Positions 18,846 through 42,062 of a stretch of 64,000 bases of DNA are shown here, piece after piece. The position numbers and the translations under genes are program-made. The DNA is from Clostridia bacterium (GTDB taxonomy: Bacteria > Bacillota > Clostridia > Oscillospirales > Acutalibacteraceae). The notes below the pieces were generated by a model that did no database searches, was not told where the DNA came from, and saw only the letters and a list, made by a program, of their open reading frames with translations. How positions within the stretch are numbered: the stretch's first letter is position 1; every line of letters starts with the position of its first letter. Location of the stretch: positions 297,502-361,501 of the forward strand of contig JAFVTQ010000002.1 of the NCBI GenBank assembly GCA_017503135.1, written 5' to 3'.

Positions 18846-18885
18846 AAAAGCCGGTGTGAACACTATAAGTTCACGCCGACTTTTC
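18846..18885. terminator. Bidirectional terminator between the HAD gene and holin
   Basis: The stem GCCGGTGTGAAC / GTTCACGCCGAC is flanked by an A-run on the left and a T-run on the right, serving the converging HAD (plus) and lysis cassette (minus) transcripts. Confidence 0.85.
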
Positions 18886-18888
18886 TTT

Positions 18889-19134
18889 TTATTCAGCTTT
18901 TTTAAGTTGTTTAAACACCTGATTGCCATAAACTGCTGTACCAGTTACAAGCACACCTTGAATAACGCTTTCTGGTGAAATTCCCATTATTGCTACTGCA
19001 CCTAAAATGCCAAAAAACAACAATATGATTGGTATGTATTTATGAGGTATTTTCTCTGTGTTTTTAATAATCATTCCGATAATATTGAGCACCGGAATTA
19101 ACAAAAGTGCATTTTCTGAAATATATTCTATCAT
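18889..19134 (-). CDS. Phage-type holin
   Basis: The 81-residue product has three hydrophobic stretches (ENALLLIPVLNIIGMII, YIPIILLFFGILGAVAIMG, VIQGVLVTGTAVYGNQV) and a basic tail, resembling the small phage holins of the Hol44/phage_holin_5 type. It would form pores that release the lysozyme encoded two genes upstream. The start is the second of two adjacent ATGs, 5 bases after AGGAGG. It is the last gene of the lysis cassette. Confidence 0.8.
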   Translation of the reverse strand: MIEYISENALLLIPVLNIIGMIIKNTEKIPHKYIPIILLFFGILGAVAIMGISPESVIQGVLVTGTAVYGNQVFKQLKKAE

Positions 19135-19143
19135 CATATCCTC

Positions 19144-19401
19144 CTATGCTAAAAATGTATTCACAAGCACGCCACAAATAGCACCAATAAGCGCTACAAC
19201 AACTCTATCCCACAGCCAACTTGGTCGTTTTTTGAGAGTTTCGATGCTCTCTTTCATCTCCCCCAGGGTGAGAAGCATACTATCAAGCTTTGTGTTGCTT
19301 GTGACCTGCGAAAGTGTCACATCATTGACTTTTTTATAGAGAATTTTAATATCTGCTTCTGCCGTGTCAAGTCTGTGATTTATTACTTCAAAATCCGACA
19401 T
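19144..19401 (-). CDS. XhlA/BhlA-like lysis accessory membrane protein
   Basis: The 85-residue product has an N-terminal coiled coil (about residues 5-58) and a single C-terminal membrane helix (VVVALIGAICGVLVNTFLA). This is the plan of PBSX XhlA and related haemolysin/holin-associated proteins. The RBS GAGG is 7 bases before the ATG. It lies between lysozyme (4 bases upstream) and holin (6 bases downstream), the usual order in Bacillus-type lysis modules. Confidence 0.72.
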   Translation of the reverse strand: MSDFEVINHRLDTAEADIKILYKKVNDVTLSQVTSNTKLDSMLLTLGEMKESIETLKKRPSWLWDRVVVALIGAICGVLVNTFLA

Positions 19402-19405
19402 ATCA

Positions 19406-20272
19406 TTACCTCATATCATAACGGTCAACAAATCCCGTCACATATTTTGACATAGGCTTTCTTTCAACATTTGAAAGCGAATTGGTAACTCGATATCGTC
19501 CTTCAAAGTAAATTCCGTCATAAATGTAATATGTGCCACTTATATAGTTTGAAACCCTGTCAGTATAAGCAGAACTATAAAGTTTTGCATTTTTGAGCAC
19601 TACTTTTTGCCCTGCATTAAAGCCACGCTTTGCAGGTGGGGCAGGGATTTCTTTACCATATCCGTTAAGTCCGTTATATTTCATAATTGACGGATAATTT
19701 TTATATGACTCATTCAAGTCCACATTTGTATCAATTCCGTCAACCTTACCCTTTGATGATTTTTGCCAGATTCCATAAGGCTTTTTAAAAGTTGGTTTAT
19801 CCGTCCATTGAGCAAGCCAGATATCATATTTTTGAAAAATCTCATCAGTAAAATAATTATTTAACCAATAGAGATTTGCATAAATACAGACATAATAGCC
19901 ATAACTTTCCATTCTCTCACAAAAGGCTTTTGCAATAGCAGAAATCTTTTCTTTGCCAAGAGTGGCTATTCTGTTTTCTTCCATATCATAGGCAATTGGA
20001 TATTCAAACTTTTTGCCCTTGATTACAGAATAACACCAATCAGCCTCTTTGATTGCCTCTTCAGGTGTTGTTGCATAAGAATAATGATAAGCCCCCACTG
20101 CTATACCCACTTCTTTGGCATTTTTATAATTATATTCAAAGCATTTATCCTTATATTCTCCCCAACCAAAAGTAGCACGAATCATTGCAAACTGGATACC
20201 TGCATTTTTGACCTTTGACCAGTTGATTTCGCCCTGCCATTTGGATACATCTATTCCTTTATAAGCTGTCAA
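19406..20272 (-). CDS. GH25 family lysozyme (endolysin)
   Basis: The product has about 288 residues. The GH25 domain (about 1-200) starts YKGIDVSKWQGEINW and contains MIRATFGWGEYKD, GAYHYSY and YDMEENR, with the Asp/Glu pairs of the family active site. The C-terminal part (about 215-288) looks SH3-like and probably binds the wall. There is no signal peptide, so export depends on the holin. The likely start is TTG at 20272, 9 bases after GGAG; ATGs at 20281 and 20278 are too close to the RBS. It overlaps the upstream gene by 14 bases. Confidence 0.9.
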   Translation of the reverse strand: MTAYKGIDVSKWQGEINWSKVKNAGIQFAMIRATFGWGEYKDKCFEYNYKNAKEVGIAVGAYHYSYATTPEEAIKEADWCYSVIKGKKFEYPIAYDMEENRIATLGKEKISAIAKAFCERMESYGYYVCIYANLYWLNNYFTDEIFQKYDIWLAQWTDKPTFKKPYGIWQKSSKGKVDGIDTNVDLNESYKNYPSIMKYNGLNGYGKEIPAPPAKRGFNAGQKVVLKNAKLYSSAYTDRVSNYISGTYYIYDGIYFEGRYRVTNSLSNVERKPMSKYVTGFVDRYDMR

Positions 20273-20507
20273 GCTCATCATCTCCTTTATAATAATTTTT
20301 AAGTGTATCGGCAGTTTCAGAGAGTTCTCTTTTTATCTCATAAAATTTTTGTAATTTTGATTTCAATTCTAAAACTGCATTATTATCCCCCACCTTTTCG
20401 GCTCTTTTTATATGGTCTTTACATTTATCTATGAAATATTGTTGCATTTCAATATGTTTTTCATACTCTTGTGCAAGCTCGGCAAGAGTCATTTTTTTAT
20501 TATTCAA
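20259..20507 (-). CDS. Small coiled-coil protein of the lysis cassette
   Basis: The 82-residue acidic and lysine-rich helical protein has heptad-like spacing over most of its length and no membrane segment or known domain. The start is TTG, 7 bases after AAGGAG, and overlaps the stop of the regulator (TTGA). The overlap on both sides shows it is a real member of the operon. The function is unknown. Confidence 0.7.
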   Translation of the reverse strand: MNNKKMTLAELAQEYEKHIEMQQYFIDKCKDHIKRAEKVGDNNAVLELKSKLQKFYEIKRELSETADTLKNYYKGDDELDSL

Positions 20508-20899
20508 TGTAAATCTCCTTTAATAAATTCAATAAAATCTGATACGGAATATCGTTGCACATCGTCTTCATAGATGAGCACATATTTTAAATATTTCTCA
20601 ATTTTCTTTTTGGCGCTGTTTAAATTTCTATAAATGGCGGCTCTTGAAAGCTCATATTTTTGCGCTAAATCCTCAACCTTTAATTCTTTCCCCCAAAAAT
20701 CAAGAACAAGCTCTTTTTCTAAACTATTGAGTTCGTTTTCAATGATTTTTTTGGCTGTGTTAAGAATATTTCTTTTTCTGTTGAAGACAATATAACCCAC
20801 ACCATTTTTTATTTCATCTTTATTTGCAAATTCAAAATTTTCTGTAAGAAAAGCATATTCGTCCACAGCAATTTCAGTTATTTGACCATTAAAAAACAA
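20504..20899 (-). CDS. Sigma-70 region 4-like phage-type regulator
   Basis: The 131-residue product has a C-terminal helix-turn-helix of sigma region 4 type (LNSLEKELVLDFWGKELKVEDLAQKYELSRAAIYRNLNSAKKKIEKYL, shown here only to mark the span, about residues 57-105). It lacks an obvious region 2. The pattern resembles late-gene activators of the ArpU/XpaF kind or small alternative sigma factors. The start is TTG, 8 bases after AGGAGG. It is the first gene after an SOS-box promoter and overlaps the next gene by 4 bases. Confidence 0.7.
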   Translation of the reverse strand: MFFNGQITEIAVDEYAFLTENFEFANKDEIKNGVGYIVFNRKRNILNTAKKIIENELNSLEKELVLDFWGKELKVEDLAQKYELSRAAIYRNLNSAKKKIEKYLKYVLIYEDDVQRYSVSDFIEFIKGDLH

Positions 20900-20930
20900 T
20901 GCCTATTCCTCCTTTTTTGAAAAACAATAA

Positions 20931-20962
20931 AGAACGCACGATTTCTCTCGCGCGTTCTTTAT
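20931..20962 (-). terminator. Leader hairpin / possible attenuator
   Basis: The arms AAAGAACGCGCG and CGTGCGTTCTTT (one mismatch) form a strong stem between the SOS box and the RBS of the regulator gene. On the minus strand it is followed by ATTGTTTTT. It could end transcription early or protect the mRNA. Confidence 0.55.
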
Positions 20963-20976
20963 CGAACATTTGTTCG
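20963..20976 (-). promoter_or_regulatory. LexA (SOS) box
   Basis: On the minus strand CGAACAAATGTTCG: perfect 5-base arms CGAAC / GTTCG with a 4-base centre, fitting the Gram-positive LexA/DinR consensus CGAAC-N4-GTTCG. It lies 14 bases downstream of the -10, so bound LexA would block the start region of the lysis operon. Confidence 0.85.
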
Positions 20977-20989
20977 CCTTGCAATTATT

Positions 20990-21018
20990 ATTGTAGCAAT
21001 GTTTTTATAAGTTGTCAA
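20990..21018 (-). promoter_or_regulatory. Strong SigA promoter of the lysis cassette
   Basis: Consensus TTGACA (21013-21018), exactly 17 bases, then TACAAT (20990-20995) on the minus strand. The predicted start of transcription is near 20983, just ahead of the LexA box. Confidence 0.85.
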
Positions 21019-21037: not shown

Positions 21038-21068
21038 AAAAAAGACGGAAGTTATAAAACTTCCGTCT
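21038..21068 (-). terminator. Terminator of the secreted Asp-rich protein gene
   Basis: Stem AGACGGAAGTT / AACTTCCGTCT with a TTTTTTATTTTG tail on the minus strand. It isolates the lysis cassette from the upstream gene. Confidence 0.9.
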
Positions 21069-21096: not shown

Positions 21097-21819
21097 TTAT
21101 TCAGCGTCTTCGCTCTTTTTTCTTGTGAGAACAAGTGCTGCACCTGCTACAAGTGCTACTGTTGCAACTGCAACTACTGATGTATCACCTGTGTCAGAAA
21201 CCTGTGAATCATTGTTATTGTCATCTGCTGGTTGGTCGTCGCCCCATAAGTCGTCATTATCGTCTGATGGTTCTTCTGGAGTTTCTTCTCCACCACTACC
21301 AAAGAGAATGTCGCCGAGACCACCAAGAACACCAAGGATTGTGTCAAGGAAGCTGCTTGAGCTATCTGAATCATCTTCTTCAAGGTCTGGCTCTTGGTTT
21401 GGAGTGTTTGGTGCAACATTACCATCTGCAGGGTTGCCGATATAACCGTCAATGTTTATATCAAGGTTTTCTTCTACTTCATATTCCCATTCAGCTTCAT
21501 CCAAGCCCCAGCCATAAGCTGCAACCAAGTCATCGTTAACTGCATTTAAAACTTCTTCTGCTGCAACTGTATCTGTGATTACATCAGCAACAGCAGCATC
21601 AAGTGTTGCATAGAAAAGTGCTTTTGAAGCAGGCATATTTGCAACGATAGTATCTATTTTAGCATCGTCAGCAAGAGCTGTATCAGCAAGAACTTCTTTA
21701 TAATAGCTTACCCAAGCATCATAGTCAGCATCTGCTGCTGGAGCTACAGCTGCGAATGCGCAAACGCTCATTGAAAGAACAAGAGCCATAGCAACTACAA
21801 ATGAAATAACTTTTTTCAT
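21097..21819 (-). CDS. Secreted acidic protein with a sortase-like C-terminal anchor
   Basis: The 240-residue product has a signal peptide (MKKVISFVVAMALVLSMSVCAFAA) and an alpha-helical central domain that I do not recognise. A low-complexity Asp/Asn/Pro/Ser-rich stretch follows (about residues 120-205). The C-terminus is SDTGD, a hydrophobic helix and RKKSEDAE, resembling the (L/N)PxTGD wall-sorting signals of gut Clostridia with the Pro lost. The start is the ATG behind GAAAGGA. Confidence 0.78.
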   Translation of the reverse strand: MKKVISFVVAMALVLSMSVCAFAAVAPAADADYDAWVSYYKEVLADTALADDAKIDTIVANMPASKALFYATLDAAVADVITDTVAAEEVLNAVNDDLVAAYGWGLDEAEWEYEVEENLDINIDGYIGNPADGNVAPNTPNQEPDLEEDDSDSSSSFLDTILGVLGGLGDILFGSGGEETPEEPSDDNDDLWGDDQPADDNNNDSQVSDTGDTSVVAVATVALVAGAALVLTRKKSEDAE

Positions 21820-21877
21820 AACAATTTTTCCTTTCGCGTAAAACGATTTTGAGGCAATTACACCTCTATTCCTAGTC

Positions 21878-39067: not shown

Positions 39068-41770
39068 TTATTTATTTGCAATCTTTGCGATGCTTTCTTC
39101 AAGCATTGCAAGTTTTTCGTTGTATTTTGCAAGTTTTTCACGTTGTTCATTAACGAGTGCTTCAGGTGCTTTTGCAACGAATTTTTCGTTGTTGAGTTTG
39201 CCTGAAACGAATGCGATTTCTTTAAGCACGCCTGCTTTTTCTTTTTCAAGACGCTCTAATTCAGCCTTGAAGTCAACGAGTTCGTCAAGTGGAATAAAGA
39301 GTCTTGCGTCTTCTGTAATGATAGCAACTGCGCCGTCTTCTTCATAGCCCTTAACGATTTCAACATCACTTGCAGATGCAAGTCTTACGAAGAAATTAGC
39401 ACCCTCAGAGAATGTGTTTTCATAAGCAGTTTCAATGAAAATCTTTGCTTTCTTTGATGGTGGAACATTCATTTCTGCACGACGGTTACGAACAGCCTTA
39501 ATTGCAGTCATAATCTTTTCCATTTCTGCTTCGTCAGCCTTGAATGAAAGTTCATCACTGAATACAGGCCATTCTGAAATCATAATTGAATCGCCATCGT
39601 GTGGAAGTGTCTGCCAGATTTCTTCTGTGATGAATGGCATAAATGGATGTAAAAGTTTGAGCGTATTTGACATTACATAAACGAGCACTGCTTTAACAGT
39701 TGCTTTTGCAGTTGCACACTCGCCGTTAAGACGGATTTTTGCGATTTCGATATACCAGTCGCAGAAGATATCCCAAATGAAGTCATAGAGTTTCTGTACT
39801 GCAAGACCGAGTTCAAACTTTTCAAGTGATTCTGTAACATCTTTTACAAGGTCATTGTATTTAGACAAAATCCATTTATCTTCAATAGCAAGGTTATTTG
39901 GAACATATGGTGCATATTCGTTTTCATCAAGATTCATAAGAATGAAACGAGCAGCATTCCAAATCTTGTTAGCAAAGTTACGGCTTGCTTCAACTTTTTC
40001 GTCAGAGAAACGCATATCGTTACCTGGGCTGTTACCTGTTGCAAGAGTAAATCTCAATGCGTCAGCGCCGTACTGGTCGATAATTTCAAGTGGGTCAATA
40101 CCGTTACCGAGAGATTTTGACATCTTTCTACCCTGTGCGTCACGAACAAGACCATGAATAAGAACTGTGTCAAATGGAACTTGTCCTGTGTATTCAAGAG
40201 CAGAGAAAATCATACGAGAAACCCAGAAACCGATAATATCGTAACCTGTTACAAGTGTATTTGTTGGGTAGTAATGTTTAAGGTCTTCTGTCTGTTCAGG
40301 CCAACCAAGTGTTGAGAATGGCCAGAGTGCTGATGAGAACCAAGTGTCAAGAGTATCTTCATCCTGACGAAGATGTGTGCTGCCACATTTTGGACAAGTA
40401 GTTACTTCTGTCTTTGAAACGATTGTTTCACCACAGTCATCACAATACCAAGCAGGAATTCTGTGTCCCCACCAGAGCTGACGAGAAATACACCAGTCAC
40501 GAGTTCCGTTCATCCAGTTAAGATAGTTCTTTGTAAATCTTTCAGGAATAAACTTTGTTTCGCCCTTTTCTACTGCTTCAATAGCAGGTTTTGCCAAAGG
40601 AACCATACGAACAAACCACTGTTTTGAAACCATTGGTTCAATTGTGTTGTGACAACGATAGCAAGTACCAACCTCGTGCTTACGTGGTTCTGTTTCTTTA
40701 AGGTATCCACCTGCTTTAAGGTCAGCAAGTATTGCTTTTCTTGCTTCCATTGTTGTCATACCAGCATATTTGCCACAATCAAGAACTTCAGGCTCGTTTT
40801 CAGTAGCCCTTCCACTTGCGATAAGCTCGTCTGCAATTCTCTTGTCTTCTGCACCTGTTAAGTGACCGTCATAAGTAAATGTACGAACAATAGGAAGATT
40901 GTGTCTTTGACCTACTTCAAAGTCGTTAGGATCGTGAGCAGGAGTAATTTTTACAACACCTGTACCCTTTGTCATATCTGCGTGCTCGTCACAAACGATT
41001 GGAATTTCTTTATTAAGAAGTGGCAAGATTACATGACAGCCATGAAGATGCTTATATCTCTCGTCTTCTGCATTGATAGCAACAGCAGTATCACCAAGCA
41101 TTGTTTCAGGACGAGTTGTTGCAAGTTCAAGTTGCTCGCCTGTTTCTTTAACTGTGTAAAGAAGATGCCAGAAGAAGCCGTCCTGTTCTTCATATTCAAC
41201 TTCTGCATCAGAAATTGATGTATTACAGCAAGGACACCAGTTAACCATGCGGTTACCACGATAGATAAGGTCTTTTTCATAAAGACGAACGAAAACTTCG
41301 TTAACAGCCTTACTGCAACCTTCGTCAAGAGTAAATCTTTCTCTATCCCAGTCGCAAGATGAACCGAGTTTCTTTAACTGTTCAATAATTCTGCCACCAT
41401 ATTGCTTTTTCCAGTCCCAAGCTCTTTCTAAAAAGCCATCACGACCTAAATCGTCTTTTGTAATACCTTCTGCTCTCATTGTTTCAACAATTTTTGCTTC
41501 AGTTGCGATAGATGCGTGGTCAGTACCTGGAAGCCAAAGTGTATCATAACCTGCCATTCTGTGATAACGGATAAGAATATCCTGTAATGTGTTATCAAGA
41601 GCATGGCCCATATGAAGTTGACCTGTGATGTTTGGAGGTGGAATTACAATAGTGTAAGTCTTTTTGCCTTCCTCACGCTTTGCGTGGAAATATTTGTTTG
41701 AAAGCCAGTCTTTGTATATCCTGTCTTCAACATTTTTCGGATTATACTGTTTTTCAAGTTCCTTAGACAT
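39068..41770 (-). CDS. valS: Valyl-tRNA synthetase
   Basis: The 900-residue class I enzyme has the HIGH-type motif [15 protein letters not shown], an editing (CP1) domain, the zinc-type knuckle CDDCGE...CPKCGS, the KMSKS loop [14 protein letters not shown], and a C-terminal coiled coil arm (about 835-900). It charges tRNA-Val. The ATG at 41770 is 8 bases after AAAGGA. It is controlled by the T-box leader directly upstream. Confidence 0.98.
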
Positions 41771-41802
41771 ATATTTCATCCTTTCAGTTAATTTATAAAA
41801 TA

Positions 41803-42040
41803 AAAATCGTCCCATACAAAATGTATGAGACGAAAAAATATCCGTGGTACCACTCAAATTGCTGTTTTAAAACAGCCACTTAAAATTCTTAACGGGAATT
41901 ACTCGTTTTCACTTAACGGTATTTCTACTTTAGGCGAAACCACTCGAAAGCTACATATCAATTTAAGGGTTGTATTGTCTTGCACCAAGCGACAACTCTC
42001 TGAAAGCTAACACAATAAATCTTACTCTTTGTCATAGTGT
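41803..42040 (-). promoter_or_regulatory. T-box riboswitch (valine)
   Basis: The leader on the minus strand contains the T-box core GAGTGGTACCACGG (41842-41855). It is followed by a terminator stem CGTCTCATACA / TGTATGGGACG with a T-run (41803-41837). A GTA triplet (minus strand of 41952-41954) in the upstream stem I region is a fitting Val specifier codon. Uncharged tRNA-Val would favour the antiterminator and valS expression. The specifier is inferred. Confidence 0.92.
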
Positions 42041-42062
42041 TTATTTTATTTAATTCCAAATG

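Follow-up and report, generated by a model that had tools for sequence, protein, structure and literature searches.

The window analysed here, a stretch of 64,000 nucleotides (64 kb) from the genome of a Clostridia bacterium of the order Oscillospirales, carries on its minus strand a tightly packed cassette of five genes. As judged from their open reading frames (ORFs), these encode, in this order, a regulator resembling sigma region 4, a small helical-hairpin protein, a GH25 endolysin, an XhlA-like membrane protein and a holin. The first two junctions are overlaps of 4 and 23 nucleotides (nt), the following two are gaps of 4 and 6 nt. A first-pass annotation made from the sequence alone had regarded this arrangement as a stand-alone lysis cassette under SOS control. 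The promoter, the LexA-type box and the tight five-gene run are found where it had placed them, terminators lie on both sides as it had stated (Table 1), and the family assignments are firm for the holin and the GH25 endolysin and weak for the XhlA-like protein. A terminator within the leader (20964-20925) had been missed. We consider it likely that the cassette, under LexA control, serves regulation and release in an inherited capsid system that is split over two loci and resembles a gene transfer agent (GTA), here without detectable tail genes. In the following, G-numbers denote genomes, with G000 being the window's own genome, and L-numbers denote individual loci in the comparison set.

Table 1. 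Features of the cassette and its borders, with positions counted from the first letter of the window
Feature	Position	Strand	Evidence and remarks
Upstream terminator	21043..21068	-	11-pair stem and T-run; separates cassette transcription from gene 21097-21822 upstream
Promoter TTGACA-17-TACAAT	20990..21018	-	11/12 consensus positions; TG ahead of the -10 element
LexA-type box CGAACAAATGTTCG	20963..20976	-	zero mismatch
Leader terminator, between box and first gene	20925..20964	-	17-pair stem, T-run, -22.9 kcal/mol
Regulator, sigma-region-4-like helix-turn-helix, 131 amino acids (aa)	20504..20899	-	TTG start behind AAGGAGG; weak matches below cut-off, family alignments, structure model
Helical-hairpin ('coil') protein, 82 aa, LKNYY motif	20259..20507	-	ORF, alignment, two-helix model
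GH25 endolysin	19406..20281	-	PF01183 2.2e-35 (over cut-off); phrog_291 endolysin 3.4e-51; solved chain 1jfx
XhlA-like membrane protein	19144..19401	-	PF10779 0.0034 (below cut-off); phrog_689 8.2e-5; equivalent slot in sister cassettes
Holin, Hol44 family	18889..19137	-	PF16079 2.4e-20 (over cut-off); phrog_1129 1.6e-26
Bidirectional terminator at the far end of the cassette	18852..18878	both	T-run on each strand

The box CGAACAAATGTTCG is the sole site in the window that matches CGAACNNNNGTTCG with zero mismatches. For comparison, the 230 bp upstream of the regulator gene were inspected at 57 loci, with 438 genes from the same loci as controls; a prophage locus (L117) and the duplicates L174, L180 and L183 were left out of this set. 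An exact GAAC-N4-GTTC box was present upstream of 39 of the 57 regulators as compared to 3 of the 438 control genes, and a box with at most one mismatch upstream of 48 and 26, respectively. Genome-wide, the loose box was not enriched (14 sites, 38 in the reversed control); the strict form GAACAWWTGTTC was, with 37 sites in nine genomes of the genus and 13 in the reversed control. Among the strict sites that were read, some lie ahead of dinB, uvrBA, an integrase gene and the cassette, others ahead of genes for a 55-aa protein, for a small membrane protein and for an orphan hairpin-protein paralogue (names assigned by eye), and some adjoin no gene recognisable by eye as an SOS gene. LexA itself is encoded in the window's genome (PF01726 match at G000:C4:251477) and was found in 33 of the 35 genomes searched. 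At the nine lexA starts that were located, a box with at most one mismatch lies within 120 bp in six cases, one of them exact. Since dinB and uvrBA in sister genomes, as well as these six lexA loci, have a box of the same type, we assign the cassette box to the LexA type of this group. Thus, control of the cassette by LexA through this predicted box, as proposed in the first-pass annotation, is supported by sequence.

Three further kinds of small genes were encountered behind perfect LexA-type boxes. The orphan paralogue of the hairpin protein occurs in this position in four genomes of the genus (G000:C4:212905, corresponding to L011 and L223; L206, L214, L221) and may be a conserved small SOS gene. 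A protein of 73-81 aa with a single membrane stretch (by eye) directly follows the box in L003 (1557-1799), L147, L154, L205 and L213; it lies near obg in L205 and L213, and the L003 copy has no Pfam match. One guess is a YneA-like division inhibitor. Finally, a protein of 55-56 aa is found in three genomes of the genus (L144, L156, L157).

Furthermore, the leader was compared between the window and 21 relatives. A hairpin of terminator type, with a T-run, was predicted in each of the 22, where 3.1 would be expected from shuffled sequences; an initial, stricter hairpin finder recognised 12 of the 22 and was replaced by this RNA-folding test. Transcription would reach the cassette genes only past the leader terminator, which would hold leakage low.

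The cassette recurs in related genomes. G098, which belongs to the same genus and is 99 percent complete, has regulator, GH25, XhlA and holin in this order beside thrS, preceded by a promoter, by a box identical to that of the window and by a terminator in the leader. Variants are present in seven more genomes of the genus; 18 named loci were mapped in addition, and 15 of them, including three that are the same contigs, also show a variant, the named relatives being metagenome-assembled genomes filed as Clostridia, Oscillospiraceae, Ruminococcaceae, Ruminococcus or Bacillota. In sister cassettes a promoter-like sequence is seen by eye at the equivalent position. The window's own chromosomal site is occupied in at least seven relatives (L082, L084, L172, L176, L179, L181, L182), where rimP or the adjoining 60-aa gene was seen, and lysis-type genes follow the regulator in 35 of 44 loci read by eye from genome stretches. 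The best solved-chain match of the GH25 protein is the muramidase 1jfx; the XhlA-like protein scores 18 bits on PF10779 (curated cut-off 34.7), so that only position and shape fit. A fibre-like gene is present in 13 of the 22 close cassettes. Its products carry collagen-like or YadA-like repeats, matched tail fibres of PHROGs in four of six scanned (L081, L085, L172, L048) and contain enzyme domains in two of seven scanned (L085, GDSL, 3.1e-17; L091, M14, 2.8e-14).

The ratio of nonsynonymous to synonymous divergence (dN/dS) was 0.025-0.263 in 20 measurable gene comparisons from seven pairs, with five further comparisons saturated, several synonymous distances above 1 and the regulator picked up in two pairs only. 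Thus, the cassette genes are maintained by purifying selection and are not decaying. The fibres diverge most, with 39-78 percent identity as compared to 79-91 percent for GH25 in the same pairs. Across genomes, housekeeping neighbours of the cassette recur in several species, and 0 of the 57 loci have the terminase signature of the capsid/packaging locus (locus I, see below) nearby. Purifying selection and recurrent housekeeping neighbours support the domestication that had been suggested for the cassette. Two INPHARED contigs labelled 'Bacteriophage sp.', L203 (MT835647) and L364 (MT835508), carry the cassette or the head locus flanked by bacterial housekeeping genes and are probably mislabelled bacterial DNA.

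The regulator gave weak matches to sigma-4-like and UPF0122 families in Pfam and PHROGs, all below cut-off. Its structure model predicts a sigma-4-like part with confidence; the Foldseek matches, all with E > 0.01, provide a fold hint only. As neither the family searches nor the structure model revealed a sigma-2 region, an assignment to the TcdR/UviA-type sigma factors, which had been considered initially, is not borne out, and a scan of the cassette and its neighbouring genes revealed no recognisable toxin gene. A possible action of the regulator on distant late genes, also suggested initially, is supported by sequence. A homologue in the prophage locus L117 lies directly upstream of the terminase genes, the position of a late-gene regulator. 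In other genera, as read by eye, many regulators are extended and end in an XRE-like C-terminus; at many loci the hairpin protein comes next, together with fibre-like proteins and a variety of endolysins and holins, and several loci have a divergent XRE-S24 repressor. Where this repressor is present in L089, L095, L096 and L097, the palindrome AATAGTnnnACTATT or a near-version was seen by eye beside the promoter, so that both LexA and a CI-like repressor could control these loci. Among annotated phages, H1 and H2 match just the XRE part of a Lactobacillus phage, and H3 is an unannotated contig. The viral_contigs collection yielded one short regulator match and six lysozyme matches at 28-34 percent identity, and two other regulators had zero matches in it.

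For the hairpin protein no Pfam family was found; its model consists of two helices with a mean pLDDT of 87.1. The gene was recognised in 6 of the 22 close cassettes, and by eye in another (L179). Regulator and hairpin protein might together form a split sigma-like factor; this is a hypothesis that can be tested rather than a finding, and it cannot apply to cassettes in which the hairpin gene is missing.

A capsid/packaging locus lies elsewhere in the genomes that carry the regulator. The terminase large subunit model PF03237 matched in all 35 regulator genomes searched, and the head operon was read in 19 of these: small (TerS) and large (TerL) terminase subunit, portal, protease or scaffold-like protein, often a decoration protein, capsid and connectors, or parts of this order, with one operon ending at a contig end. 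It is located between housekeeping genes, and the scanned members have PHROG and Pfam support. In the window's genome the head locus (L264) occupies about G000:C4:278.6-284.6 kb, with open frames. The HK97 capsid model PF05065 matched in 10 of the 35 genomes, the window's not among them; the locus-I capsid scores just 25.1 bits on this model (cut-off 24.2) and was located via its terminase. The model phrog_2 matched in 35/35 genomes and also in 11/14 controls and was excluded from the counts, many of its best matches being the same terminases. Eighteen capsids from nine genera are 42-70 percent identical to two reference sequences. With a capsid profile, 248 of 395 genomes of the family and 71 of 111 genera were positive, 243 of the 248 with a single match.

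At a threshold of E <= 1e-20, chosen by us, 60 genomes have the regulator; its locus was read in 42, and the copy read in G188 is a prophage copy. G032 was left out of the 60 (1.3e-20, match over residues 39-105); G004 (4.8e-20) and, at about 1e-13, the inspected cassettes of G261 and G375 miss the threshold, and all three genomes are capsid-positive. All 60 regulator genomes hold the capsid locus as compared to 188 of 335 others (Fisher p 5.6e-14). Counted by genus, the numbers are 13 of 13 and 58 of 98 (p 0.0038), which is the fairer figure, because relatedness inflates the count by genome. Across 18 genomes, distances between regulators are correlated with those between capsids (Mantel r 0.42, p 0.0001). 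Thus, 'stand-alone' does not describe the cassette, whereas the guess in the first-pass annotation that a cargo such as a GTA might be encoded elsewhere is supported by sequence. Together with SOS control and domestication, this part of its interpretation is supported; the stand-alone nature and the TcdR/UviA type are not.

Among annotated phages, the capsid matched five unannotated faecal contigs at 48-61 percent identity and three real-phage records at 22-24 percent. A lone locus-I-type capsid gene is present in two phage-like IMG/VR contigs, L290 (10001-10981), which has its own head genes too, and L292 (7359-8366). Capsid interference or chimeric assemblies are possible explanations.

The head loci were also inspected for tail genes and regulatory elements. 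A baseplate-J profile built from longer versions of the head locus matched in 3 of the 35 genomes, contiguous with the head locus in G006 only, and the tail endopeptidase PF06605 in 8/35, with zero match in the other 27, the window's genome included; a divergent or short tail could escape these searches. In other lineages (L331, L361, L293-L295), head loci are extended by hub, spike, gp25-like and baseplate-J-like genes and at some loci by a sheath-like gene (by eye); they are possibly the ancestral form with a tail. Among the LexA-box sites read, none of the perfect boxes controls GTA genes. Upstreams of TerS (n=17) have in common an element of about CTATAGGTGAAGG, often just behind a T-run, with a score of 110 as compared to <=54.5 in eight single-base shuffles run with fewer restarts; by design the model assigns a site to each sequence, and the score is inflated by relatedness. 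Two of 19 upstreams had been dropped, as the start was not recognised. Several head operons, e.g. those of L264, L266, L279 and L283, are also preceded by an element resembling TGTAAACAA and by a hairpin with T-run, as seen by eye.

With regard to its surroundings, the cassette neighbours a HAD hydrolase gene (Pfam) as well as rimP, nusA and ylxR (by eye). Neither these neighbours nor the remaining ORFs of the window, read by eye, include a prophage, which upholds the earlier observation that no prophage genes surround the cassette. Reading by eye also revealed no integrase or replication genes in the window ORFs or the gene maps, no family search having been made for integrases; the exceptions are L117, the prophage, and the recombinase-like gene near L093. 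An ordinary T-box leader (41823-42044) is found ahead of an aminoacyl-tRNA synthetase-like gene (39068-41857).

On this basis we propose the following course of events. DNA damage would cause LexA to leave the box, and transcription would read through the leader. The sigma-4-like regulator, perhaps with the hairpin protein, would then raise expression of the cassette operon and of the distant head/packaging operon. The heads would package DNA, and holin, XhlA-like protein and GH25 lysozyme would open the cell and thereby release them. In relatives, the fibre-like protein from the cassette locus would decorate the particle. Of this, the sequence documents the anatomy, the box, the leader terminator, purifying selection and the co-occurrence with the head locus, whereas the events themselves and the cooperation of the two loci are inferred.

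Several observations weigh against this interpretation. Co-occurrence within a single family is not independent of descent, and 188 genomes have the capsid locus and lack the regulator at the threshold; the dependence is therefore one-way. The baseplate-J profile had zero matches in 32/35 and the sheath model PF04984 in 33/35 genomes, the window's included in both cases. Thus, these searches point to no device for injection, there may be no transfer, and DNA delivery appears doubtful here even given packaging and release. The exact LexA box is absent from the eight head loci of the genus that were mapped, and the TerS upstream motif is not found at the cassette promoter, so that joint control of the two loci is hypothetical. 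Nine of the 57 regulators are boxless even at one mismatch, including L081, L083 and L085 from the window's genus, although these three retain promoter and leader terminator. Three of the nine lexA loci, among them that of G098, have no box within 120 bp. The hairpin gene, recognised in just 6/22 close cassettes, is not essential to all of them, and the fibre gene is missing from the window cassette and from 8/21 close relatives, including G098 and the closest relative L182. In 9 of 44 loci no lysis gene was recognised by eye behind the regulator (L089, L094, L104-L106, L109, L110, L113, L120); these carry the regulator with or without the hairpin gene and include all six loci of genus g4. A serine-recombinase-like gene lies 0.4 kb past the L093 cassette.

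The best-surviving alternative is an autonomous, damage-triggered lysis system that serves altruistic death or the release of vesicles or public goods, with the capsid locus being a separate conserved element. It agrees with the content of the window cassette, which holds regulator, hairpin and lysis genes only, with the established sufficiency of holin and endolysin for lysis, with the finding of no regulatory motif common to cassette and head locus and with the capsid-positive genomes that lack the regulator. We nevertheless judge it unlikely in view of the co-occurrence in 60/60 genomes and 13/13 genera, the fibre-like genes within the operon of 13/22 close cassettes and the precedent of locus II of the Faecalibacterium element FpGTA, as far as the accessible part of that report describes it (PMC12946183). 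Less probable still is a colicin-like release unit, in which the enzyme-tipped fibre of the relatives (GDSL esterase, M14 peptidase) would be the effector and the window would keep the release part only. The order of LexA-type box, effector-like gene and lysis genes and the enzyme domains in two of the seven scanned fibre-like proteins would fit such a unit, whereas the tail-fibre matches in four of six, the collagen-like or YadA-like repeats and the co-occurrence with capsid genes argue against it. The cassette might also be the end of a decaying prophage, with distal late genes of a lost phage retained by chance. Phage late operons end in a similar arrangement (fibre, XhlA, holin, endolysin), the L117 homologue lies directly ahead of prophage terminase genes, and a recombinase-like gene is found near L093. 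We reject this very improbable explanation, which is disfavoured by the recurrent neighbours across several species and by selection (low dN/dS in 20/20 measurable comparisons), and which also conflicts with the preserved box and leader terminator and with the 0/57 loci that have a locus-I terminase signature nearby.

Extending the reading of the cassette as the release locus of a GTA-like capsid system, we tentatively suggest, with rather less than even confidence, that most genera of this Oscillospirales family carry an inherited, usually single-copy head system, tailless in the lineages studied. Lysis would be triggered by the SOS response via LexA box, leader terminator and the sigma-4-like switch, in some species with the hairpin partner, a LexA-controlled paralogue of which would itself belong to the SOS regulon, and the capsid would carry DNA from damaged cells. 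Such a tailless capsid would be a GTA that has lost its tail or else a different means of DNA release. If so, capsid-based DNA packaging would be widespread in a major family of gut bacteria and not a peculiarity of Faecalibacterium; the SOS response would be the trigger in these lineages, and release should follow exposure to DNA-damaging agents. This may also explain why parts of cassette and head loci are found as phage contigs in public collections. Both loci, the regulator and the leader terminator are now defined by concrete coordinates that can be tested.

Several known systems share features with the one described here. Colicin operons and the uviA/uviB-bcn genes of C. perfringens are LexA-controlled, tightly repressed and end in lysis or holin genes, and the regulators of the TcdR/UviA group combine sigma-2 and sigma-4 and target a toxin or bacteriocin gene. 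Unlike these, the cassette contains no recognised toxin gene, and its regulator has no detectable sigma-2. PBSX of Bacillus subtilis is one contiguous, DNA-damage-induced element with a contractile tail, Xre/Xpf control and the lysis genes xhlA-xhlB-xlyA at its distal end; the cassette resembles it in the lysis set of XhlA, holin and endolysin. Xpf, a sigma-like positive control factor, is listed with both sigma-2 and sigma-4 in the part of PMC10141391 available to us, as in the extracytoplasmic function type of sigma factor, whereas the regulator described here shows sigma-4-like matches and fold only and its loci are split. SigO-RsoA of B. subtilis, a two-subunit sigma factor according to a table in the same source, likewise pairs a sigma-domain protein with a small partner. 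This is an analogy only, with no sequence or structural match shown, and the hairpin protein is below every Pfam cut-off and missing or unrecognised in most close cassettes.

The closest counterpart is FpGTA of Faecalibacterium, reported in 2026 as a two-locus GTA-like element (PMC12946183; the following refers to the accessible part of that report). FpGTA I comprises terminases, portal, scaffold and capsid, and FpGTA II baseplate, fibre, receptor-binding protein, holin and endolysin; the two are about 125 kb apart in one strain, and proteins of both were detected in a particle sample. As in FpGTA, a head locus and a lysis locus occupy separate chromosomal sites in Gram-positive gut bacteria, with no replication genes reported, a likeness in described gene content. 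The window's genome likewise has a capsid/packaging operon elsewhere (L264), no integrase or replication genes as read by eye, and vertical inheritance supported by purifying selection and by the correlated regulator and capsid distances. Of the FpGTA II genes, the window locus has holin and endolysin and neither baseplate, fibre nor receptor-binding protein (a fibre-like gene being present in 13/22 close cassettes), and no tail or baseplate genes were found in the window's genome. The two-locus plan is thus already known from Faecalibacterium. As far as our searches by title and abstract went, with most subscription journals and preprints outside them, there is no earlier description of the regulator, of its LexA-type control, of a terminator in the leader or of the breadth across a family; the accessible text on FpGTA contains no occurrence of 'lexa', whereas the cassette described here has a LexA-type box. 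FpGTA I was present in 12/12 Faecalibacterium genomes and not in Gemmiger or Subdoligranulum, whereas the head locus described here extends to 71 of 111 genera of one family.

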